From assembly GCF_001676785.2 (NCBI RefSeq), contig NZ_CP015910.2, forward strand, positions 2,480,001 through 2,544,000: 64,000 nucleotides of DNA. The letters run 5' to 3'. Below the pieces are notes generated by a model. The model did not search any database. It worked only from the letters and a program-made list of their open reading frames with translations, and was not told where the DNA came from. Positions 2,848 to 18,637 of the stretch are shown here, one piece after another; the stretch's first letter is position 1, and each line of letters starts with the position of its first letter. Source of the stretch: Brachyspira hyodysenteriae ATCC 27164 (GTDB lineage Bacteria > Spirochaetota > Brachyspiria > Brachyspirales > Brachyspiraceae). Made by a program: the position numbers and the translations under genes.

Positions 2848-4155
2848 TTATTTTTGAACAGTTTTATTTGATTTTAAATGATTATATTTTCTTTTACTAA
2901 CATAACCCTTAATAATATTACCTTCATTATCTTTAGTTTCTACTTCATAATAATATTTAACATCACCAATGATAGTTATATTATTAACTGTAGTTTGATA
3001 TATAACGTTTGATTTTGAATTATTTTTATCCATTATATTTATAATTAAAGCAGTAAAAATTGCAATCAATAATCCATAAATAATTAATATTATTCTATTA
3101 TATATAGGATTTTTTTTACTCCATTTTTCCCAATAATCCATCAATTTTAATTGCCAATTATTAGTATTATTAATTGAATATAAATCGTTTTTTAACTCTT
3201 CAATCTCATTCTTATCAATAGCTTTTAAATTTAGATTTTCATCTTCTTCTAATTTCAAGAATACTTTATTAATAGAATCAGAAAAACATTTTTTATAATT
3301 TAATTCTATAAAATTTGCATAATCTTTTTTTAATAATTCTTGAGAATGTTTTAATGTTTCATATAAACTATTAATTGTAATTGAACCTGCAATATCTACA
3401 TATTCTTTTTTGCGTAATTCTTCAGCATTCTTAATGGCATCAGATAAAGAATTATTTAAACTTAAATTAGAATGTTTTAATGTTTCATATAAACTATTAA
3501 TTGTAATTGAACCTGCAATATCTACATATTCTTTTTTACGTAATTCTTCAGCATTCTTAATGGCATCAGATAAAGAATTATTTAAACTTAAATTAGAATG
3601 TTTTAAAGCTTCATATAAACTATTAATTGTAATTGAACCTGCAATATCTACATATTCTTTTTTACGTAATTCTTCGGCATTCTTAATGGCATCAGATAAA
3701 GAATTATTTAAACTTAAATTAGAATGTTTTAATGTTTCATATAAACTATTAATTGTAATTGAACCTGCAATATCTACATATTCTTTTTTGCGTAATTCTT
3801 CAGCATTTTTAATAGCATCAGATAAAAAATTATTTATACTAGAATTAGAAACAATATTTTTATTTTCTTTATTGAATTCTTCAATATCTTTAAAAGTGTT
3901 ATATAAACTATTAACTGCGAGTTGAGAAGCTTCGTATAAAGTATTGTTAATATCAATTTTTTTTGTATCTATATTAAAACTCTTTTCTTCTTCAAGAATT
4001 TTTCTTATACTAGAATGAATATCTAATTCTGGAATACTCCTATTAAATTTATTTTCTTCTTCAACTATTTTTTTTATAGCACTAGAATGAATATCTAAAT
4101 TTTTTGTACATATATCAAATTTATCAGATAATAAACTTGAAGTAGAATTTTTCAT
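2848..4155 (-). CDS. Membrane-anchored protein with internal tandem repeats
   Basis: 435 residues, with TGGAG seven bases before the ATG. The N-terminal part holds two related LDIHSS...KILEEE segments. Then come four 42-residue repeats (SLSDAIKNAEELRKKEYVDI, ending in SLYETLKHS), probably helical. A conserved IDKNEIEELKNDL stretch follows, then a WSKKNPIYN lead-in to one transmembrane helix (about 354-375) and a C-terminal domain ending GYVSKRKYN. The last 110 residues closely match the protein at 7338-8159 beside the reverse transcriptase. Function is unknown. The shared C-terminus and island setting suggest a membrane-acting effector or sensor, which is inference only. The gene ends directly against the repeat. 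Confidence 0.7.
   Translation of the reverse strand: MKNSTSSLLSDKFDICTKNLDIHSSAIKKIVEEENKFNRSIPELDIHSSIRKILEEEKSFNIDTKKIDINNTLYEASQLAVNSLYNTFKDIEEFNKENKNIVSNSSINNFLSDAIKNAEELRKKEYVDIAGSITINSLYETLKHSNLSLNNSLSDAIKNAEELRKKEYVDIAGSITINSLYEALKHSNLSLNNSLSDAIKNAEELRKKEYVDIAGSITINSLYETLKHSNLSLNNSLSDAIKNAEELRKKEYVDIAGSITINSLYETLKHSQELLKKDYANFIELNYKKCFSDSINKVFLKLEEDENLNLKAIDKNEIEELKNDLYSINNTNNWQLKLMDYWEKWSKKNPIYNRIILIIYGLLIAIFTALIINIMDKNNSKSNVIYQTTVNNITIIGDVKYYYEVETKDNEGNIIKGYVSKRKYNHLKSNKTVQK
3344..3847. repeat. Four tandem 126-bp repeats inside a coding region
   Basis: Near-identical 126-bp units begin at 3344, 3470, 3596 and 3722. The unit is a multiple of three, so gain or loss keeps frame and changes the protein by 42 residues per unit. 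Copies differ at only a few bases (for example AATGTTTC versus AAGCTTC), and the last one degrades. Such identity implies recent expansion. Confidence 0.9.
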
Positions 4156-4262
4156 AAATTACTCCAATAAACCAAATTATATTTATAGTATATATTATAG
4201 CAGTATATATTTCAATATTTTTTTAATTATCACCATCAAGAATCTTTATCAAACCAAATAAA

Positions 4263-4923
<661 letters not shown>

Positions 4924-4927
<4 letters not shown>

Positions 4928-6261
4928 TCTTCCTCTATAATCCTCACTTCCTCATCACTCAAATTATACAACTTATACACCAAAGCATCAATCTGCTTGT
5001 CAACAGCATTAATCTGCCTGTTAATCATAGTAACAGCATTCGGATTTTTCTCAACGGCTAACTTTTTGTTTAACGCAATGATACTGTCAACTAAAGCAAC
5101 AATTTTGTCATGCATTTCCTTGTCTTGTTTATCATCTAAATTTATATTTGGCATAGGAAAAGAATTTAATACATTAATTTTTAATTCAGCAAATAATTTT
5201 CCTTTTCTAGGTTGTATAGTTCTATAATACCAAGTAAGAAATTTTGAATTTAAAATACCTAAAAAATACAATAAGCTAATATCTGTAAATTTAGGAATGC
5301 ATACAAAAACATTATTACTGAAATAATAATTATCATTATCTACATTAGCCAATATAAAATCACCTGTTCTTCTAACAACTAATTTATTATTTTCAAAATA
5401 TTTAGAATTACCTAATCATGCATACTCCTTATTTTTCTTATCAATAATATTTGGAGAATAATTAACCCATTTACCATTCCAAGTTAAATTATACCTCTTT
5501 ACTTCATCTCCTCCTAATATAAGTTTCTTACAATAATTATTTAGACATTCATCTATAAATAATTTTTTTCTTATATTACCTGAGTGTATACCTTCATGTG
5601 ATTCAAAATAATCAGAAAATTTATTATAATTTTTAAATTTATTAAGAATATTAATAATATCATCTGTCAAATATAAATTAAATTTATAACCTGTATTATC
5701 ATTATAAACCTTTTGAGAAATTCTATTTGATATTATTTTATCTTTATCATGTATAAATATATTAATAATATTATCTTTTACTGTTCTATTATCAATATTT
5801 CCTATAATAGTACAGCTATCTAAATTGACCTTTTTAAATGCCATTCCCCAATGAGATATATCACTAATGCATAATTTATCTAAAATTAATTTTCTAGTTG
5901 AATCATAATTTTTTAACAATATAATATCAGGCAATACAAGACCAAACAAACCATTATCTTTTATTAAATTAAAAGATTTCTCTATAAAAAATCTAAATAA
6001 ATCTAATATACCTATTGTAGAGACTGGATATTTTTCTTTAAAATAATATTCTTCTTCTTTTAAGATATTAATTTCTTTTTGACCCCAAGGCGGATTGCCT
6101 ATCACCACATCGAAACCGCCCCCTTTAAAAATATTTTTAAACTCGTCCTCCCAATCAAAACAATTTATTTTATATTGCGTCTCCTCGTCAAAATCAAGCA
6201 CCGACTGGCTCTCGTAAAAATCATTGCCTACTACGAGCTGTAGCACCTTCCCGCACGGCAA
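4924..6261 (-). pseudogene. Truncated type IIG-like DNA methyltransferase module 1, with internal stop
   Basis: This is the C-terminal half of an Eco57I-like adenine methyltransferase. It starts at VVGNDFYES, has the catalytic motif IV NPPW in GFDVVIGNPPWGQ, a target-recognition region, and the conserved C-terminal helices (LNKKLAVEKNPNAVTMIN). The 5' end, which should encode the nuclease domain and the SAM-binding DPACGSG motif, is absent because the repeat border joins the gene just before GNDFYES. An in-frame TGA at about 5416-5418 interrupts it (KNKEYA stop LGNSKYF), followed by the expected VVRRTGDF motif. A CGA-to-TGA change would explain this. The ends match the module at 9797-11089 almost exactly but the middle differs. 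It cannot be an active enzyme alone. Confidence 0.8.
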
Positions 6262-7337
6262 CGCTCACCCTTACAGAAAGTACAATGTACGTGCGGCTGA
6301 TTACCCAACATCAAACAAAAAACTAACTAAAAAGCTAACCCAGAAATATAAAATCGAACCCACAAACAGATACTAACACAGAAATAATTTTTTTGAAAAT
6401 TTATCTTATTACCCACCCAAACCCGCCCTTATAGTTAAACAAACATTTTTAACAAAACAAGCCCGAAAATATAAATTTTTTTAAAGACTACGAAAAAAAA
6501 TCGACTTTCCCCACCCCAACAAGCTAGCCATTTGAACCACTCGCCGTAGCTTCCGCACTACTCGCCGTAGGGGCATTCCGCACGGTAACGCTCACCATTA
6601 CAGCAAGTACAATGTAAGTGCGGCTGATTACCCAACATCAAACAAAAACAAACTAACTAAAAAGCTAACCCAGAAATATAAAATCGAACCCACAAACAGA
6701 TACTAACACAGAAATAATTTTTTGAAAATTTACCTTATAAACCACCCCCTAACCGAGCGAAACGAAAAATAAAAGGCTATGAAATTTTTAATTTTTACTT
6801 ATATAATACCCACCCAAACCCGCCCTTATAGTTAAACAAACATTTTTAACAAAACAAGCCTACAAACAGTAACTTTTTTAGAAAAAACACGAAAAAAATC
6901 GACTTTCCCACCCCAACAAGCTAGCCATTTGAACCACTCCCCTAGCTTACGCACTACTCGCCGTAGGGGCTTCCCGCACGGCAACGCTCCCATTACAGAT
7001 AGTACAATGTAAGTGCGGCTCATTACCCAACATCAAACAAAAAATAAAATAACTAAAAAGCCAACCCAGAAATATAAAATCGAACCCACAAACAGAAACT
7101 AACCCAGAAATAATTTTTTGAAAATTTACCTTATAACCCACCCCCTGACTGAGCGTAGCGAGGAAATACCCGGACGAAGTCCACCGGAGGTGAGGGTACG
7201 CCCTTATAGTTAAACAAACATTTTTAACAAAACAAGCCTACAAACATAAACTTTTTTGTGCGAGCCGCACCACCACCCCGCACGGCACTGCTCGCTCTTA
7301 CAGAAAGTACAATGTATGTGCGGTTTATTACTCAATA
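6262..7337. repeat. Repeat block R2 (core copies 5-8)
   Basis: This is a tandem-like array of the island repeat with cores at 6251-6296, 6578-6623, 6974-7018 and 7278-7323, spaced 327, 396 and 304 bp. Between cores the long unit recurs: AACTAAAAAGCTAACCCAG, TTGAAAATTTACCTTATTAC, CCCGCCCTTATAGTTAAACA, then AGCTAGCCATTTGAACCACT and CTACTCGCCGTAGGGGC. Some units contain a GAGCGTAGCGAGG insertion (7140-7170). Minus-strand open frames of 60-70 codons cross several units, but they follow the repeat and lack ribosome sites, so I do not call them genes. Confidence 0.85.
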
Positions 7338-8159
7338 TTATTTTTGAAAAGTTTTATTTGACTTTAATTGATTATATTTTCTTTTACTAACATAACCATT
7401 AATAATATTACCTTCATTATCTTTAGTTTCTACTTCATAATAATATTTAACATCATTAATAATAGTTATATTATTAATAATAGTTTTATTTATTATTTGA
7501 GAATTAGAACTAGCATCTTTTCTTACAGGCAATAAAAGACCTATATAAAAACTAATAATAGCTGGAACAACTACAGATAATATTAGTGCTATAATAGGAT
7601 TTTTTTTAGCCCATTTTTTATAAACATCAAATATCTTTTGCTGCCAATTAAGTGATATGACATTTTCTTTGTGTATTTCTTCTAAGTCGTTTTTTAACTC
7701 TTCAATCTCATTTTTATCAATATTTTCTAAATTTATATCTTTATTCTCTTCTAATTTTAATAATGCTTCATTAATAGAATTAGAAATAATTTCTTTGTAT
7801 TGCAACATTGGAATATTAATATTCCTAAATGTAAAAACATTAGTTAGCATTGAAATAGTACGCTGAAATTCATTAGATAATCCTAAAATATTAATATCTC
7901 TAAATGTAAGAACATCTACTAATTTTGAAATAGTCGATTGAATTTCATCAGAAAATCTAGGAATTAAAATCTTTTCAAAATTAATTTTATTAAATACATT
8001 ATCAAAATTTGCTATTGGTAAATTTTTATACGCTTCCAAATATTGTATTTGAGTTTTATGCATATTATTAATAATATCTGGAACAAGTCTAATTTTACTA
8101 ATTTGTTCTATACGAGAATTTAATAAATTTTCTATTAAAATAAAATCTTTATTTTCCAT
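7338..8159 (-). CDS. Retron-linked membrane protein, candidate effector
   Basis: 273 residues, with AGAGG before the ATG, 76 bp downstream of the reverse transcriptase gene on the same strand. The N-terminal 120 residues are helical and contain two similar segments (LVDVLTFRDINI and LTNVFTFRNINI). Then come IDKNEIEELKNDLE, YKKWAKKNPI, one transmembrane helix (about 188-211) and a 60-residue C-terminal domain with YYYEVETKDNEGNII and GYVSKRKYN. The C-terminal half matches the protein at 2848-4155. Many retrons carry a membrane effector next to the reverse transcriptase, which makes that role plausible. No sequence motif proves it. The stop codon lies directly against repeat core copy 8. Confidence 0.65.
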   Translation of the reverse strand: MENKDFILIENLLNSRIEQISKIRLVPDIINNMHKTQIQYLEAYKNLPIANFDNVFNKINFEKILIPRFSDEIQSTISKLVDVLTFRDINILGLSNEFQRTISMLTNVFTFRNINIPMLQYKEIISNSINEALLKLEENKDINLENIDKNEIEELKNDLEEIHKENVISLNWQQKIFDVYKKWAKKNPIIALILSVVVPAIISFYIGLLLPVRKDASSNSQIINKTIINNITIINDVKYYYEVETKDNEGNIINGYVSKRKYNQLKSNKTFQK

Positions 8160-8235
8160 TTACTACCTCTCAATAATATTTATTACTACTTTATAAAACA
8201 ATATAATAATACCAAACATTTAATAAAAAATTAAA

Positions 8236-9192
8236 TTACTTAGGTATTAATTTATATAATTTTCTTATTCTATTTCTATTAGCTAAAAAATGATCTTCTT
8301 CTATTTGTTTAGTATAATTAAGTAAGCCATTTAATTTTGATATTGTTTTAATAATTTCAATATTATTATTTTCTATCTCTTTTTTAATAATATCATTAGA
8401 TTTATTTAATAATTTTAAATTTTCAATAATATCTTTTCTTTTTGAATTTTTTATATATAGTTTATTATTTTTTAATATTACTCCTGTTATTTTAGCATAA
8501 CCTTTATTATATCGCTTAGTTTTTTCAGGTTTTATCTTTAAATTATTTTTTTCAAAAATATCTATTATCTTATTAGGCAATTTATTTGTAAACTTTATAT
8601 CTGAAGAAAATGTCATATCATCTACATATAAAGAAAATCTTATTCCTTTTTTTAAACATAGATTATAAATATTATCAAAAACATCACTATAACATAAATA
8701 TGCTAATATTTGACTTGATGGACTTCCTGTAGATAAAAAAGTTTCTTTCCCATTATCATAAACTGTTAATTTTGTAATAAATAATGCTATATCACTATTT
8801 AATTTAAACTTATTAAAAAACAAATCATATATTGTATTCCCTTTAATACTATTATAAAAACTTGATATATCCATAGTCAAAAAATATTTTTTTCCTAAAT
8901 GATATCTAGCATTTTCAATATTATTTTTATTAGTATTTTTTATACTTGGAGCAAATAAATATTTAGGTAATACTTTTGGTAATAAACATTTTAATAATTT
9001 TTTTTGAGTTTTTTTAAGAAAAAATATAGGTTTGTGTATTTCTCTACCATTATCATTAATTTCTGTTATATAACATTCTTTTATATTATTATTAATAATG
9101 TTATATTTTAATACTTTATTAACACAAAGAAATTCACAAGTTTTTTCTATAGAAGTAAAATTTTTAAATATATCTAAATTGTATTTTATCAT
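8236..9192 (-). CDS. Retron-type reverse transcriptase
   Basis: 318 residues from the ATG at 9192 (a TTG one codon earlier is also open). The order of polymerase motifs is clear: GREIHKP near 49, the retron-typical NAxxH as NARYH (94-98), motif A DISSFYNSI (108-116), motif B GSPSSQ (156-161), motif C YVDD (189-192), and a VTG-like ITG at 235-237. There is no maturase, endonuclease or integrase domain, so a group II intron or LINE-like role is unlikely. Expected role: synthesis of branched msDNA from an adjacent non-coding RNA. The gene follows a 43-codon ORF by 17 bp and a highly structured leader, and precedes a membrane-protein gene. Its ribosome site is weak, which suggests coupling to the small ORF. 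Confidence 0.88.
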   Translation of the reverse strand: MIKYNLDIFKNFTSIEKTCEFLCVNKVLKYNIINNNIKECYITEINDNGREIHKPIFFLKKTQKKLLKCLLPKVLPKYLFAPSIKNTNKNNIENARYHLGKKYFLTMDISSFYNSIKGNTIYDLFFNKFKLNSDIALFITKLTVYDNGKETFLSTGSPSSQILAYLCYSDVFDNIYNLCLKKGIRFSLYVDDMTFSSDIKFTNKLPNKIIDIFEKNNLKIKPEKTKRYNKGYAKITGVILKNNKLYIKNSKRKDIIENLKLLNKSNDIIKKEIENNNIEIIKTISKLNGLLNYTKQIEEDHFLANRNRIRKLYKLIPK

Positions 9193-9209
9193 CAAAAATA
9201 ATAAGCTGG

Positions 9210-9341
9210 TTACCTAAACAGGTAATCCATAATGGAAGATACAACCTTAATAATAAAGTGTATCAACTTATGATATTTTACATAATAAAATATCATATTT
9301 AGGAATAGTGATATAATTTTATTTTTGATAAAATTTATCAT
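9210..9341 (-). CDS. Small hydrophobic protein of the retron locus
   Basis: A 43-codon ORF with a strong AAAGGAG site six bases before the ATG, ending 17 bp before the reverse transcriptase start. The product (MINFIKNKIISLFLNMIFYY, then a basic KYHKLIHF segment and a second hydrophobic stretch) is amphipathic and could associate with membranes. Its ribosome site forms one arm of a long hairpin (9347-9411), so translation may be controlled by RNA folding. I recognise no family. It may be a leader peptide for the reverse transcriptase or a small toxin. Confidence 0.5.
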   Translation of the reverse strand: MINFIKNKIISLFLNMIFYYVKYHKLIHFIIKVVSSIMDYLFR

Positions 9342-9716
9342 AATATCTCCTTTATATAGTGCTTTGGATTTCTTACACAATGTAAGAAGCACTATGCCAC
9401 CCATAAAGGAGTGAAAAAATTATATCCCTGTTTAAGACCATTAGCTCGTAAACGAGCAATAAATTATTGCAATATTCTAACAAATTACTCGCTTTGCGAG
9501 TCTATTGTTAGTTAATGCAATATATGATGCTAATAACGAGCGATAAATCATCGCCACCCAAAACATATTTTAAATGAATAAATGAAATACAAACAATAGC
9601 AATTCATAATTAATATAAAATACATTTAAGTAAATAGGCAATGAACACAATAATCAAACAATTCAATTAATTGTGAAATTTTTCAAAGAGCAATATTTAT
9701 TGCTTGGTGGCAATTC
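9342..9716 (-). ncRNA. Structured leader, candidate retron msr-msd RNA
   Basis: On the minus strand, between a promoter-like site and the small ORF, several strong stems occur. (1) AGCAAT/ATTGCT at 9704-9689, immediately after TTGCCACC (9713-9706). (2) CACAAT...ATTGTG at about 9676-9630. (3) GCGAT/ATCGC at 9554-9540. (4) A long hairpin near 9525-9465 with TATTGCA, CTAACAA and ACTCGC arms. (5) GCTCGT/ACGAGC at 9457-9444. (6) A 65-nt hairpin 9411-9347 (CTCCTTTAT...ATAAAGGAG). TTGCCACC can pair with GGGTGGC at either 9559 or 9402, giving alternative a1/a2 closures of about 165 or 320 nt. The AGC following a1 fits a retron branch-G context. The exact RNA ends and which hairpin is msd are unknown. 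Confidence 0.5.
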
Positions 9717-9723
9717 ATATATA

Positions 9724-9751
9724 ATGATACTATATATTATTTTTTTGTCAA
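9724..9751 (-). promoter_or_regulatory. Probable promoter of the retron-like operon
   Basis: The minus strand reads TTGACA (9751-9746), a 16-bp A/T spacer and TATCAT (9729-9724). Initiation would fall near 9717, just upstream of the candidate a1 sequence, so leader, small ORF, reverse transcriptase and membrane protein would form one transcript. Confidence 0.55.
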
Positions 9752-9796
9752 TTTAATATAAAATTATTCAATCAATATATAATACCTATTTTCTAT

Positions 9797-11089
9797 TTAT
9801 TCACCTTCTATAATTCTCACTTCCTCATCGCTCAAATTATATAACTTGTACACCAAAGCATCAATCTGCTTGTTAACAGCATTAATCTGCCTGTTAATCA
9901 TAGTAACAGCATTAGGATTTTTTTCAACGGCTAACTTTTTGTTTAACGCAATAATGTTGTCAACAAGATTAACTATTTTATCATGCATTTCTTTATGTTG
10001 TTTATTTTTTAAATCTAATTGTGGAATAGGAATTTTAGCAGTAACAACTGAATCAAAATGCATAGTCCTTATAGATTTACCAAATATAAAAATATATGTA
10101 TACCAAGATAACAATTTTGAATTAAGAACTCCAAGTATAAACTTTATATCAAAATCACTTTTATTGTATAATTGATTAACAGTATCCAATATTAAATAAT
10201 CATTTATATTTTCTAACATACTAGAATGTATAGCTATTATTTTAATATGTGGTACTGGGTTCATTATATGAGCTACTATATTTTGTACTAAAATAGAATT
10301 ATTATTAATCATTGCTTTATCTTCAATATTATTATCACCTGAAATATATTTAATATAATTATCATTATAAAAATATCTTGAAATATTTTTACCACCCAAA
10401 ACCTTATAATATTTTTTATTTTCAGGAATTTCATCTATACATATCTTTTGATAACCTGCTCCACGTTTATTAATAATAATATCATTAAAATAAAGATTAG
10501 ATGATTTCATTTTCACAGCTATATTTAAATCTTCATTAGAAATACCATTTAAATAAAAATCAAATTCATTAAATGTTTTTTTATCAATATTTCCTATCCT
10601 TTTAATTTCAGTATCTTCTCGTACAGAAGTTATATAATTATCTTGATTTAAATCTTTTTTAAATAAAGTTATAACTTGTTCTAATTTTACATCTTTCCAA
10701 ACTTTACCACAATCAACCAATTCAAACAAATGATCAATCATTAATTCTCTTGATACTTGCCAATTTGAAGCATATATAAAAGATTTTGGAATAATATATC
10801 CATTTATACCATTTCCTTTTAGTAATTTTTGCAATAAACCTAAAAATAAAGCTGCTGTATTTGTGTTACCCAAACCATATTTTCTCTCTAAATAAATTCT
10901 TTCAACATCTAAAAGTTCAGCTCCATATGGCGGATTACCTATCACCACATCGAAACCGCCCCCTTTAAAAATATTTTTAAATTCGTCCTCCCAATCAAAA
11001 CAATTTATTTTATATTGCGTCTCCTCGTCAAAATCAAGCACCGACTGGCTCTCGTAAAAATCATTGCCTACTACGAGCTGTAGCACCAC
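9797..11089 (-). pseudogene. Truncated type IIG-like DNA methyltransferase module 2
   Basis: 430 open codons hold the C-terminal half of an Eco57I-like adenine methyltransferase. It begins at VVGNDFYES next to the repeat border and has NPPYG (motif IV), a target-recognition region (ELVDCGKVWKDVKLEQVI; KNISRYFYNDNYIKYISGD) and the C-terminal AVEKNPNAVTMINRQINAV. The first 50 and last 60 residues are nearly identical to module 1 (4924-6261). The middle is unrelated in detail, implying a different DNA target. The nuclease domain and DPACGSG motif are missing and there is no ribosome site, so it is probably silent. Unlike module 1 it has no internal stop. It may be a donor of specificity sequence for a complete gene. 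Confidence 0.8.
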
Positions 11090-12479
11090 CCCGCACGGTA
11101 TCGCTTACCATTACAGATAGTACAATGTAAGTGCGGCTGATTACCCAACATCAAACAAAAACAAACTAACTAAAAAGCTAACCCAGAAATATAAAAACTA
11201 ACACACAAACGGAAACTAACCCAGAAATAATTTTTTTGAAAATTTACCTTATTACCTACCCCCTGACCGAGCGTAGCGAGGAAATACAGAAAAGCAGAAA
11301 AAGAATTTTTTTTTAAATTTTCATTATTACCCACCCAAACCCGCCCTTTAAAGTTAAACAGAATTTTTTTAAACAATAAGCCCGAAAATATAAATTTTTT
11401 TAAAGACTACGAAAAAAAATCGACTTTCCCCACCCCAACAAGCTAGCCATTTGAACCACTCGCCGTAGCTTACGCACTCCTTACGGTCTGGGGCATTCCG
11501 CACAGCACTGCAACCCCTTACAGACAGTCAACTGTACGCGACCGAAGGAAGTACCCGAAGGGTATGCGGCTGATTACCCAACATCAAAAAACAAACTAAC
11601 TAAAAAGCTAACCCAGAAATATAAAAGCTAACCCACAAACAGAAACTAACAAAGAAATAATTTTTTTGAAAATTTACCTTATTACCCACACCCCTAACTG
11701 AGCGTAGCGAGGAAATACAGAAAAGCAGAAAAAGAAATTTTTTTAAATTTTCATTATTACCCACCCAAACCCGCCCTTTAAAGTTAAACAGAATTTTTTT
11801 AAACAATAAGCCCGAAAATATAAATTTTTTTAAAGACTACGAAAAAAGTTGACTTTCCCAACCCCAACAATCTAGCCATTTGAACCACTCACCTAGCTAA
11901 CGCACTACTCGCCATACGGGCATCCCGCACGGTACTGCAACCCATTACGGATAGACCTCTGTAAGTGCGGCTGATTACCCACTACTCGCCTAGCTAACGC
12001 ACTCCCTACGGTCGGGGGCTTTCCGCACGGTAACACTCACCATTACAGCAAGTACAATATATGTGCGGTTTATTACCCAACATCAAACAAATAACTAAAA
12101 AGCTAACCCAGAAATAATTTTTTTGAAATTTACCTTATTACCTACCCCCTGACCGAGCGTAGCGAGGAAATACAGAAAAGCAGAAAAAGAAATTTTTTTA
12201 AATTTTCATTATTACCCACCCAAACCCGCCCTTTAAAGTTAAACAGAATTTTTTTAAACAATAAGCCCGAAAATATAAATTTTTTTAAAGACTACGAAAA
12301 AAGTTGACTTTCCCAACCCCAACAATCTAGCCATTTGAACCACTCGCCGTAGCTTCCGCACTACTCGCCGTAGGGGCATTCCGCACGGTAACGCTCACCA
12401 TTACAGCAAGTACAATGTAAGCGACCGAAGGAAGTACCCGAAGGGTATGCGGCTGATTACCCAACATCAAAAAAATAAT
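11090..12479. repeat. Repeat block R3 (core copies 9-13)
   Basis: Cores lie at 11091-11136, 11498-11569, 11925-11970, 12023-12068 and 12381-12452. Copies 10 and 13 carry the enlarged form with the extra GACCGAAGGAAGTACCCGAA arm. Two ~200-codon-spaced minus-strand frames (11170-11376, 11600-11806) repeat almost the same peptide because they lie in the same unit; I regard them as non-coding. Unit segments with GACCGAGCGTAGCGAGGAAA occur at about 11265, 11695 and 12150. The block ends directly against the stop codon of the next gene at 12480. Confidence 0.85.
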
Positions 12480-14701: not shown

Positions 14702-17700
14702 CTAACCCTCAATAATCTTTATCTCCTCATCATTAAGCCCATACAAAGCATACACAATCTTATCAATAGCCTTGTCCACCGCCTGAATACGCGTGTTAAG
14801 CATCTCAATAGTGTTAGGGTTCTTCTCGGAGGAAAGTTTTTTGTTTAAGTCAATGATGTTGTCAACGAGCTTAATTAAATTTTCTTCTGTATTTTTATCA
14901 ATATCTGGAATAGGAAAATCATTTATATATTGAGGTTTAAACCTTGTTGTATTACCTCTTAATATAGTACCTGTTTTCTTAACATAATAAGTAAATAACT
15001 TACTATTAAAAATTCCCATATAAACATTGATGTTATATATAGCCTTTTCATTAAATACAATACTGTAAATTGTAGTTGTATGATATAAATTTTTATCATC
15101 AATCACAGCCTGCATTCTCATATTAATATCAGGAAAAGAAATTTTTTTATGCTCAAATTCATTTAAACTTTTCGGGTATATATAAGCATAAAATTTATCA
15201 TTTTTCATTCTTCCCCTTTCTCTATTTTCTAATTCTTTTCTATTTTCTTGCAAATATTCCCAAGCCTTTGGAAACTGCTCTTTTATTTCTTTTTGAGAAT
15301 ATAATACAGCAGGATTTAAATTTATATTATACGGAAAAATTACCCAACGAATTGGTTGTACATCAGTATACCTTTTTAAATCTTTACCCAATAGAAATGG
15401 TTTTATAAATCCTCTTTCTATTTCAATTTCTTTATCTAATGACTTTGAATAAGTTTTTACAATTCCATTATTTTCTTCCCCGCCTTGTAAAACATAAATA
15501 TCGTCTGCACTTGTAGCTATACCTTGAAATATTTTTTTTGTTATATCTTTTAAAACTATTTTATAATTTTTTAATTTCTCTATTATAGACAAAGTATCAT
15601 TATCATAAAAATTCCAATTATCTTTTGTTATTATACTAATAGGAAAAGTTTCAAAAGTAGATTCAAACAATTTTTCTTTTATATCTACATTTTCATCAAA
15701 TCTTAATAATTTAAAATCATTTTGTTCTTCATTAGATAAAAATAATAAACAAGTATATGTAGTAGCATTATTAAATATTTGATTCTCACCAAAATACACA
15801 ACTTTTTTTAATGCCTTTCTATTAGATATTATTTCTCTTAAATTCTCTCCCATATCTACTTTAAAAAACTTATGAGGTAAAATATATCCCATTTCACCTG
15901 TAGGCTTTAATAACTGAAAAGCTTTTTCAACAAAACATAAATAAATATCTATATTACCACTGTTTGCACTTTTATAAGTTTGTTTTAATGCATCTACAGT
16001 TAATGGGCTTGATTCTGCCATTGTCTGAATTTTTACATAAGGAGGGTTTCCAATTACTACATCAAAGCCCCCTGCTTTCATTATATCCCTAAACTTAGAA
16101 TTCCAATCGAAACAGTTAATTTTATATAAAGTGTCATCATCCAAATCGAGATGGCTCTCGTAAAAATCATTGCCTATTAAACTATTACCGCATTTGATAT
16201 TGTCCTCCAATGACGGTAAAGCTCGCTCATTAAATAAATCCTGATTGTTCTGTATTGACGCTGGACTCTCCCCCTCCAAACATTTCATAAGTAATGATAA
16301 TTTCGTTACCTCTACCGCATTGCTGTCTATGTCCACTCCAAATATATTGTTGCGTAATATCTGCTTCTTTATCCAAATTGTTAAATCCCCATTCTCTTTT
16401 ATTACATCTTCTTTTGATCCCTTAAACTTCGCCCTGTCCTTTATCTTGTTGTAATATTCAATATGATAATTAAGTAAATATTTATACGCCCCAAGTAAAA
16501 AACTTCCGCTGCCGCAAGCTGGATCCAATATTTTTATATTCGCTATCTCCTCAGGCTTCTTCCCCTTTATAGCCTCCCCAACTGTATTCGCTACTATATA
16601 ATCAACTATATACTCAGGTGTATAATAAACCCCTCCTGCCTTACGCACCTCTGGTTTTAATTCTATCTTCGCACTATGATTCTTCCCTATAGTGATAGTC
16701 TTACCCAAAAACTGCTCATAAGCATTCCCTATTATCTCAACCGATATCACAGAAAACTCATAAGGACTCAAAGGATAATAAAGCTCATTAATAATCTCTT
16801 TTATTACTTTATTATCAATCTCAATACTGCTGCTAATACTGTCTTTAGAAAAATCAAACAGCCCCGAATTATACCTGCCGTCAGCTTTCTCAAAAATTTT
16901 TAAAAGATTACCATAAAAACTCTCATCCTTATTTTCACAAGTCTTTTTTAAATCCCCATACTCCTCAATGCCTCTGTCTTCAGCCGCCCTCAAAAATATA
17001 ATCCTGTCAATAATCTGCTGAACCGCATAATTCAAATCGCGTACAGATAAATTTTTATTAAGCTTCGCAATATTAGATGCAAGCTTAGTCCTTAAACTAT
17101 CAAGTGAATTAAGAAAATCAATATCAACACTTTCAGTACCTTTTTTGTTTGAAGTACCTGCAATATATTTTTCAAGCGAACCCTGTTCAATTCTCTCTTT
17201 ATTAAGTATCTCATAAAGAAAATCAAATCTATTAAGATAATCCTCAAAATGAATATACTCAATCCTAGCAGTAGAAGCCTTATCATTAACATTTGGCTTT
17301 CTAGTGCAGTCATAAACAGCAAGCTCCTCAAAATCAGTAAGAAAACTTATACCAAGCTTGGCACTCCAACCATACCTCCTAAGCTGAAAAGCAGGCAAAC
17401 TGTCCTCTTTAAGATTAACACCGGGCTTTTTCGCCTCCACAAAGAAAACCCTATTCCCCCCAATACGAAATGCATAATCAGGAGCTTTAGTTTCCTTTCC
17501 AACTTTCACCTTATCTTCATGAATTACATCACGATAAGTCTGCGATTTACCTGCCCTATTAGAAACGTCCCAACCGAACGCCTCAAAGAACGGATCCAAA
17601 AAATCCCTTCTAGTCTCCGTTTCATTATAATTTTTATTTGTATACTGATCCTTGTTATTCCTAAACTTAATAACTAACTCTTCAACTTTTTTATAAACTT

Positions 17701-17716
17701 CTTCTTTACTATACAT
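14702..17716 (-). CDS. Type IIG-like restriction-modification protein (Eco57I family)
   Basis: About 1004 residues from the ATG at 17716, preferred over 17728 because GGGGG sits five bases before it. The N-terminus has a PD-(D/E)xK-like nuclease signature: PDYAFRIGGNRVFFVEAKKP (D about 80, E94, K96). Then come a helical linker, the GGVYYTPEYIVDYIV lead-in, SAM motif I LDPACGSGSF (about 397-406), VDIDSNAVEV, and motif IV NPPY (557-560) for N6-adenine methylation. A C-terminal target-recognition region ends in helices like those of the silent modules. Expected role: one polypeptide that methylates and cleaves DNA. Its DNA is clearly diverged from the two truncated modules at the shared GNDFYES region, so direct recombination with them is not obvious. 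Confidence 0.88.
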   Translation of the reverse strand: MYSKEEVYKKVEELVIKFRNNKDQYTNKNYNETETRRDFLDPFFEAFGWDVSNRAGKSQTYRDVIHEDKVKVGKETKAPDYAFRIGGNRVFFVEAKKPGVNLKEDSLPAFQLRRYGWSAKLGISFLTDFEELAVYDCTRKPNVNDKASTARIEYIHFEDYLNRFDFLYEILNKERIEQGSLEKYIAGTSNKKGTESVDIDFLNSLDSLRTKLASNIAKLNKNLSVRDLNYAVQQIIDRIIFLRAAEDRGIEEYGDLKKTCENKDESFYGNLLKIFEKADGRYNSGLFDFSKDSISSSIEIDNKVIKEIINELYYPLSPYEFSVISVEIIGNAYEQFLGKTITIGKNHSAKIELKPEVRKAGGVYYTPEYIVDYIVANTVGEAIKGKKPEEIANIKILDPACGSGSFLLGAYKYLLNYHIEYYNKIKDRAKFKGSKEDVIKENGDLTIWIKKQILRNNIFGVDIDSNAVEVTKLSLLMKCLEGESPASIQNNQDLFNERALPSLEDNIKCGNSLIGNDFYESHLDLDDDTLYKINCFDWNSKFRDIMKAGGFDVVIGNPPYVKIQTMAESSPLTVDALKQTYKSANSGNIDIYLCFVEKAFQLLKPTGEMGYILPHKFFKVDMGENLREIISNRKALKKVVYFGENQIFNNATTYTCLLFLSNEEQNDFKLLRFDENVDIKEKLFESTFETFPISIITKDNWNFYDNDTLSIIEKLKNYKIVLKDITKKIFQGIATSADDIYVLQGGEENNGIVKTYSKSLDKEIEIERGFIKPFLLGKDLKRYTDVQPIRWVIFPYNINLNPAVLYSQKEIKEQFPKAWEYLQENRKELENRERGRMKNDKFYAYIYPKSLNEFEHKKISFPDINMRMQAVIDDKNLYHTTTIYSIVFNEKAIYNINVYMGIFNSKLFTYYVKKTGTILRGNTTRFKPQYINDFPIPDIDKNTEENLIKLVDNIIDLNKKLSSEKNPNTIEMLNTRIQAVDKAIDKIVYALYGLNDEEIKIIEG

Positions 17717-18637
17717 AATGTCCCCCATTACTTTTAATAATTTTATTTATAAATTTACTTTTATTATATAATTTTTAATCCATATAAACCAACAAAACCA
17801 TATAATAAAACCTTCATATTTTTATATATACCTAAACAATTATATTTTATCAACTTATGCACTTTATATAAATGTTATCTACTTTTTTGTTGCACACGCT
17901 CTGCGGACTTCGTCAAAGTAGCAAAAAACGCAAATACTACAGTTTAATATTTTAAAAATATGCATTAAATGTGGGTAATACCCTAGTTTTAACTTCAAAA
18001 TGCAATATTTCTCCGTAGGCGGACAGTGGACACTACAAAGGCAGATAGCATCCAGCCACCACCACTTTTAATAATTTTATTTTTGTAACGTTCAAATATA
18101 AAAAATAAACTTTAAACGCAATACTCTCATTAAACTATAAAATAAATATACACTTTTATATAGTATACAAAATTTTACTTAAATATTCAATGAAAGATAC
18201 CATTTTTTATAGCACAACATTTGAGAAATATAATTGATTAACTATCGACTTTTATAATATAAAATACCTACATTATAACTTTATACTGCAATACACCCAA
18301 ACCACACATTTTGCAACTAAATATAAGTAGAAAATCAACCCCAACATCAAATAAACTACTAGCTTTACCATACGGGTACACTTTGTGCCCCCCGCACTAC
18401 TAGCCTAGCTAACGCACTCCCTACAGTCGGCACCATTCCCGCATGGCACTGCAACTCCTTACAAACAGTCAATTATACGCAACCGAAGGAAGTACCGTCA
18501 GGTATGCGGCTGATTACACAACATCAAACAATAAAACTAACTAAAAAGCTAACCCATAAATAATTTTTTAAATTTACTTTATTAACCACTAGAAATACAG
18601 ATTTTACAACTAGATACAAGTAAGAAATATATTGACG
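17717..18637. repeat. Intergenic region with repeat core copy 14
   Basis: No gene is seen here. 17880-17930 holds the short GCGGACTTCGTCAAAGTAGC element (reverse of GACGAAGTCCGC found elsewhere), and 18015 has CCGTAGGCGGAC. The island repeat occurs at about 18350-18560. It has a degenerate left unit (CTAGCCTAGCTAACGCACTC), the core 18439-18509 with CCGCAT/ATGCGG ends and the enlarged arm, then CTGATTACACAACATCAAAC and AACTAAAAAGCTAACCCA. The rest is AT-rich spacer. Confidence 0.6.

Follow-up and report, generated by a model that had tools for sequence, protein, structure and literature searches.

The classification that names type VI retrons is reportedly that of Mestre et al. 2020. In classical retrons (Ec86 and others) two complementary segments, a1 and a2, close around msr and msd, and the reverse transcriptase (RT) carries retron motifs. 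Type VI, as PMC8541194 describes it, consists of an RT, a DNA-binding gene and a gene for a small auxiliary protein. We analysed a stretch of 64,000 nucleotides of Brachyspira hyodysenteriae ATCC 27164 (NZ_CP015910.2, positions 2,480,001 to 2,544,000; hereafter the window, whose numbering is used throughout), in which an RT of the type VI lineage follows a small open reading frame (ORF) and a structured leader on the minus strand. The a1/a2 closure and the RT motifs are those of classical retrons. However, a2 in classical retrons is independent of any ribosome site, whereas in the window it is predicted to form the bulge of a hairpin that locks the Shine-Dalgarno sequence (SD) of the small ORF. 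Comparing distant relatives, we found that a1, a loop copy of its complement and a bulge copy of the same complement constitute a conserved triple of sequence elements, the pairings of which are supported statistically. The literature that we searched, which excluded Mestre 2020, experimental retron censuses, preprints and most subscription papers, describes no mechanism for type VI retrons, and neither a three-element leader nor an SD lock in them; an earlier description is possible.

The best PADLOC profile for the RT was RT_VI (3.7e-61; 205 bits compared to 120 for the next type) and the protein contains the retron motifs NARYH (NAxxH), YVDD and ITG ((I/V)TG; VTG-type). Solved retron RTs were the top matches to its family profile (Ec86, 2.5e-38). 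In a tree of 45 rows the RT fell inside the type VI group (branch 97/90), apart from the other Brachyspira retron RTs; its nearest neighbours were locus L054 and the spirochaete locus L011, both of which have retained a helix-turn-helix (HTH) gene. Type VI retrons usually carry such a gene, but in the window the HTH (Xre) gene is missing, there being no ORF between the small ORF (stop at 9210) and the RT (start at 9192). For this reason we class the element as an HTH-less variant or relative of type VI rather than as a full member. It is otherwise like type VI in its RT lineage, its small auxiliary ORF upstream and its compact unit, which in the relatives often sits on plasmids and phages, among them a P2-like phage version of Klebsiella/E. 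coli (L048, L050). The unit common to the window and a second Brachyspira genome spans 8210-9845 and contains the leader, the small ORF and the RT only. By its RT and leader anatomy the element is assigned to the retrons. An earlier sequence-only reading had already taken the RNA for a retron leader, which is borne out by the RT lineage and by an a1/a2 pair enclosing structured RNA beside the RT, and the features it had located on the minus strand all lie where it placed them.

Two predicted folds of the leader

Judging from a promoter-like site (Table 1), the RNA is expected to start near 9717. The sequence-only reading had proposed that an element close to this start (TTGCCACC, 9713-9706 on the minus strand) pairs with either of two GGGTGGC copies, at 9559 or 9402. 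Both copies are indeed complementary to a1, and they are the only occurrences of this word on either strand of the 64 kb, where 0.83 would be expected. They are not equivalent: the copy at 9402 is the conserved a2 and the copy at 9559 corresponds to the one that relatives carry in their msd loop. It could be argued that the copy at 9559 is the true a2, closing a short msr-msd (9714-9550), and that the copy at 9402 acts only in a separate translational lock. With 9714-9706 the former does form 9 pairs, one of them U-G, compared to 7 Watson-Crick pairs between 9712-9706 and the latter. In the full-length fold, however, a1 paired with the copy at 9402 with a probability of about 0.80 and with the copy at 9559 with one of only 0.04, and in the relatives the upstream copy sits in the loop of a closed hairpin, the bulge copy being the downstream one. 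We consider this assignment improbable and keep the copy at 9402 as a2. When a1 pairs with it, the SD is predicted to be single-stranded.

Folding of the whole leader gave a z of -6.2 against dinucleotide shuffles (0/100). The minimum free energy (MFE) structure shows about five hairpin loops between the pairing partners, so that the earlier count of at least six was roughly right. The claim that the small ORF has its ribosome site hidden by a hairpin at 9411-9347 held: the z of this hairpin was -3.6 compared to shuffles and the whole SD is paired with a probability of 0.99. Since a2 is flanked by the two strands that form the anti-SD:SD stem, this stem and a1:a2 are mutually exclusive as nested helices. 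The predicted energies of the two states are about 0.6 kcal/mol apart, with 9/11 nt of the SD unpaired in one and 0/11 in the other. The leader is most likely bistable, being either a retron fold that serves as template for the multicopy single-stranded DNA (msDNA) and exposes the SD or a closed, untranslated mRNA. A switch between retron fold and translation had been postulated before, and the conserved anatomy described below suggests one.

We scored a triple consisting of one GC-rich word within the SD hairpin, its upstream copy and their complement further 5′, with words weighted by base composition. The window reached 35.3 bits compared to 21.5 ± 3.3 for 1000 dinucleotide shuffles (maximum 32.0). 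A score based on length alone was not significant for the window triple (0.30); AT-rich words dominate such a score, which is why the weighting was adopted. None of the Rfam families matched the leader of the window or those of ten relatives.

The sequence-only reading also placed an AGC directly behind a1, as a retron branch site. The AGC is present at 9704-9702, but one A (9705) intervenes and the trinucleotide is not conserved in the type VI relatives. In these, a1 and hairpin 1 are usually separated by 5-9 nt and then a U(U)GRG-like stretch. Since the AGC is not conserved, a branch at G9703 is only possible.

The three elements in distant relatives

Within Brachyspira there is a single relative, 99% identical, which offers no genus-level covariation. 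In this second genome a1 reads TGTCACC, a C-to-U substitution that leaves a U-G pair, and both copies are unchanged. We thus used distant relatives, namely about 30 divergent loci from spirochaetes, Bacillota, alpha-, beta- and gamma-proteobacteria and a cyanobacterium, which are not fully independent of each other. The rule was set before the later loci were fetched. It places a1 on the 5′ side of hairpin 1 and expects two copies of the a1 complement, one in the apical loop of a big hairpin and the other forming a bulge in the 5′ strand of the hairpin that locks the SD. In the relatives this bulge measures 5-10 nt. Listing a1, loop and bulge in this order, we observed CTGTCGT, GGACGACA and GGACGACAG in L065 and GTCGTC, AGACGACC and GAGACGACC in L069. 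Loop and bulge were identical in L055 (TCTCCC with TGGGAGA twice), in L095 (GCCATC with CGATGGC twice) and in L054 (GCGAG with AGGCTCGC twice), which is close to the window in the RT tree and was not used to frame the rule.

An SD hairpin with a bulge (at least 5 nt on the 5′ strand and at most 1 nt opposite) was present in the MFE structure of 21 of the 32 peptide leaders but in none of the 25 leaders that precede the neighbouring HTH genes. The mean z was -2.4 and +0.1, respectively. The anti-SD and SD arms covary: with elements chosen by eye, the score was 16.8 for a locus' own arms compared to 12.2 ± 0.5 for swapped loci (0/20000). When partners were permuted between loci, we obtained 0/2000 for loop versus bulge and 4/20000 for a1 versus bulge (0/20000 without the GGCGA-type loci); in these two tests some elements of L042, L049, L078 and L085 were set by hand. 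An algorithmic comparison of the loop copy with the bulge zone in 27 loci gave a shared word of 6.0 nt compared to 4.04 ± 0.19 nt for swapped loci (0/20000), and in the eight loci that were added once the rule had been written the values were 6.0 and 4.22 ± 0.43 nt (3/20000). The permutation tests are conservative because related sequences sharing the GGCGA word stay in the null distribution. The element sequences were too variable for a covariance model, and none was built.

Our first bulge finder returned nothing in L053, L068, L079, L098, L106 and L112 and misassigned helices in L078, L085, L111 and L113. No bulge finding is involved in the zone-based test. For the batch of L106 and L110-L113 the strict finder worked in L110 only, and L106, L111, L112 and L113 showed a full or partial fit only by eye or in the zone-based test. 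Two copies of a word were also detected in the SD-hairpin zone of four other HTH-less loci, L052, L057, L079 and L097 (shuffle fractions 0 to 0.008).

Because distant relatives keep the design while its sequences change, the lock is probably real. Loci that retain the RT and lack the pairings would have spoken for the contrary; what we observed is that distant relatives keep the pairings. Chance complementarity in an AT-rich leader might be invoked, as the elements are short and were found by eye. Given that 0/1000 shuffles reached the window triple, and given the permutation results across the relatives, we regard chance as a most improbable source of the conserved triple.

The small ORF and the neighbourhood

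The features of the locus are listed in Table 1.

Table 1. Features of the retron locus in window coordinates.
Feature	Position	Strand	Evidence
Retron reverse transcriptase, type VI lineage	8236..9192	-	PADLOC profile, motifs NARYH/YVDD/ITG, tree, family profile
Small ORF encoding a cationic amphipathic peptide of 43 aa, a candidate effector/toxin	9210..9341	-	ORF list, counterparts in relatives, charge and hydrophobic moment
SD-locking hairpin, outer stem 9411-9403:9355-9347 (CUCCUUUAU:AUAAAGGAG), inner stem 9395-9387:9364-9356	9347..9411	-	Fold; same geometry in relatives
Shine-Dalgarno AAAGGAG of the small ORF	9347..9353	-	Sequence, fold
Copy 2 = a2, GGGTGGC, 7-nt 5′-strand bulge of the SD-locking hairpin	9396..9402	-	Fold, geometry of relatives, tests
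Long stem-loop of the presumed msd (putative msDNA template)	9463..9520	-	Fold
Copy 1, GGGTGGC, corresponding to the copy that relatives have in the msd loop	9553..9559	-	Fold, word count, shuffles; not in apical loop of predicted fold
msr hairpin 1 (AGCAAUaaauAUUGCU)	9689..9704	-	Fold; place matches hairpin 1 of relatives
a1, TGCCACC, complementary to both GGGTGGC copies	9706..9712	-	Fold, shuffle and permutation tests
Promoter-like site TTGACA-16-TATCAT	9724..9751	-	Consensus match only, 11/12

The peptide encoded by the small ORF has a net charge of +5 and a hydrophobic moment of 0.62. Nearly all HTH-bearing relatives that were fetched have a small ORF ahead of the HTH gene, of about 31-67 aa and mostly 47-62 aa. 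In the relatives it precedes the HTH gene or immediately precedes the RT, and it combines a basic part with an amphipathic or hydrophobic helix-like part. By position and description the ORF of the window is the counterpart of the type VI small peptide gene, and its product is probably a toxic, membrane-active peptide. It could alternatively be a mere leader peptide, with the effector encoded by the ORF at 7338-8159 (coiled coil and membrane segment) directly downstream of the RT on the same strand. However, this ORF has a paralogue at 2848-4155 without an RT beside it, is present at 97% identity in a Brachyspira genome that lacks this RT, is absent from the genome carrying the 99%-identical RT and lies outside the shared unit, which stops at 8210. 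It is thus inherited apart from the retron and we dropped it as a candidate, such an effector being very improbable. The two paralogues have conserved C-termini (57% over 159 aa) and occur in some Brachyspira without this retron.

Three further Brachyspira loci with RT_VI matches, L020, L016 and L018 (genomes G006, G021 and G025), were rejected as relatives: they belong to a different retron lineage with a classical a1/a2 of 12 bp (AGCTTACAGATA ... TATCTGTAAGCT) and have no small ORF between a2 and the RT. These retrons come immediately after a type IIG restriction-modification gene, at its 3′ end. The retron in the window has the same neighbourhood, which is likely an insertion hot spot for retrons in Brachyspira. 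The region 2848-11500 of the window holds truncated pieces of type IIG restriction-methylase/specificity genes (5416-6261, 4924-5352 and 9797-11089) with near-identical ends and interspersed repeats; they probably constitute a recombining array of specificity cassettes beside the full-length gene at 14702-17728. Among the relatives, the Microvirga plasmid locus L095 has a TIR-domain gene (3168-4127) directly after its type VI retron RT. On a Bacteroides uniformis plasmid the HTH-less retron L097 has a lysine-rich ORF of 71 aa, and TTTTAGGCACGTG occurs twice in its leader upstream of 1688, a similar two-copy design.

Proposed control of the peptide

To our knowledge, the retron effectors known so far are proteins that an RT-msDNA complex keeps inactive. 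In the present element a tiny peptide is the sole candidate for an effector, and the leader of its mRNA is the presumed msDNA template, so that translation could be the regulated step. With an even balance of confidence and doubt, we propose that a single leader RNA serves as msDNA template and also as the 5′ untranslated region of a small, probably membrane-active toxic peptide, that this RNA is bistable and that the msDNA loop competes for a2. In the closed state 9411-9403 (the anti-SD) would pair with 9355-9347, hiding the SD and displaying a2 as a bulge. In the retron fold a1 (9712-9706) would pair with a2 (9402-9396) and close the msr-msd; since this helix crosses the anti-SD:SD stem, the stem would open and expose the SD, and the anti-SD, immediately 5′ of a2, would become the first part of the template to be copied by the RT. 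By analogy with Ec86 the complementary DNA (cDNA) is expected to start next to a2. As the msd loop of the relatives repeats a2, their msDNA would carry the sequence of a1 in its loop and could compete against a1 for binding to a2, on the transcript of origin or on others. The msDNA would thus hold the leader closed and the toxin off, and if msDNA or RT were lost during phage attack, a1 would open the lock and thereby allow translation of the peptide. We infer the production and the ends of the msDNA, the toxicity of the peptide, the direction of control and the phage trigger.

We also considered a decoy made of RNA only, in which the loop copy as RNA keeps a1 off a2 and the msDNA plays no role in translation. 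The complementarity of a1 to the loop copy (15/20000 swaps reach it) would suit such a decoy. However, loop and bulge agree over 6.5 nt compared to 5.3 and 5.0 nt for the matches of a1 (25 of 30 loci, Wilcoxon p 0.0008; elements chosen by eye, so this is suggestive only), and a1 tolerates U-G pairs where loop and bulge remain identical. The closer agreement favours a direct relation between loop and bulge, as pairing of the msDNA loop with the bulge would demand, and thus the msDNA as the competitor of a1 for a2. An RNA-only decoy has little probability in our view. For type VI as a whole we advance only tentatively that the msDNA is an antisense DNA antitoxin, the loop of which (the a1 copy) binds the bulge beside the SD and so sets translation of the peptide.

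The sign of control is the least certain step, and its reversal is the main rival. Reverse transcription would then turn the peptide on: a1:a2 pairing and copying of the anti-SD by the RT would remove the lock, the closed hairpin being a resting off state independent of the RT, and active msDNA synthesis, for instance triggered by phage, would expose the SD. The anti-SD lies immediately 5′ of a2, the expected start of the cDNA, so copying together with RNase H would destroy the lock, and the predicted higher stability of the closed state in most relatives also fits. In characterised retrons, however, RT and msDNA serve as antitoxin, which is well established and also stated in PMC12548924, and the reversed sign leaves the repeat of a2 in the msd loop unexplained. 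We judge it rather unlikely, and favour the msDNA as the agent that keeps the peptide off.

Several observations weigh against this model. Copy 1 was not found in an apical loop of the window fold but is predicted to lie in a stem, and it is 157 nt upstream of copy 2 compared to 57-74 nt nearly everywhere else (92 nt in L052). Only 1 nt separates a1 from hairpin 1 instead of the 5-9 nt of the relatives, and without an HTH gene the window is an atypical member of the set. Among the relatives, L088, L042 and L049 showed a weak match or required assignment by eye, and L111 failed the algorithm. The closed state is predicted to be more stable than a1:a2 in most relatives, by up to 13 kcal/mol, and opening of the lock may for this reason need the RT. 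Finally, complementarity alone separates neither the loop as RNA from the loop as DNA nor one sign of control from the other.

The proposed system resembles type I toxin-antitoxin systems, in which a small cationic amphipathic or hydrophobic peptide is likewise encoded behind an SD hidden by leader structure, under antisense control. In those the antisense is a separately transcribed RNA, whereas here part of the leader itself, together with the DNA that the RT copies from it, would act as antisense. Riboswitch-like translational attenuators also have two mutually exclusive folds, one of which hides the SD; they differ in that the open fold of the window doubles as the presumed priming structure of the RT. 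As the sequence words of the three elements differ between the relatives, the model is open to tests by point mutations and compensating mutations. If it is true, type VI retrons would have a concrete mechanism, in which msDNA is a sequence-specific regulator and reverse transcription is coupled to translational control of a toxin.
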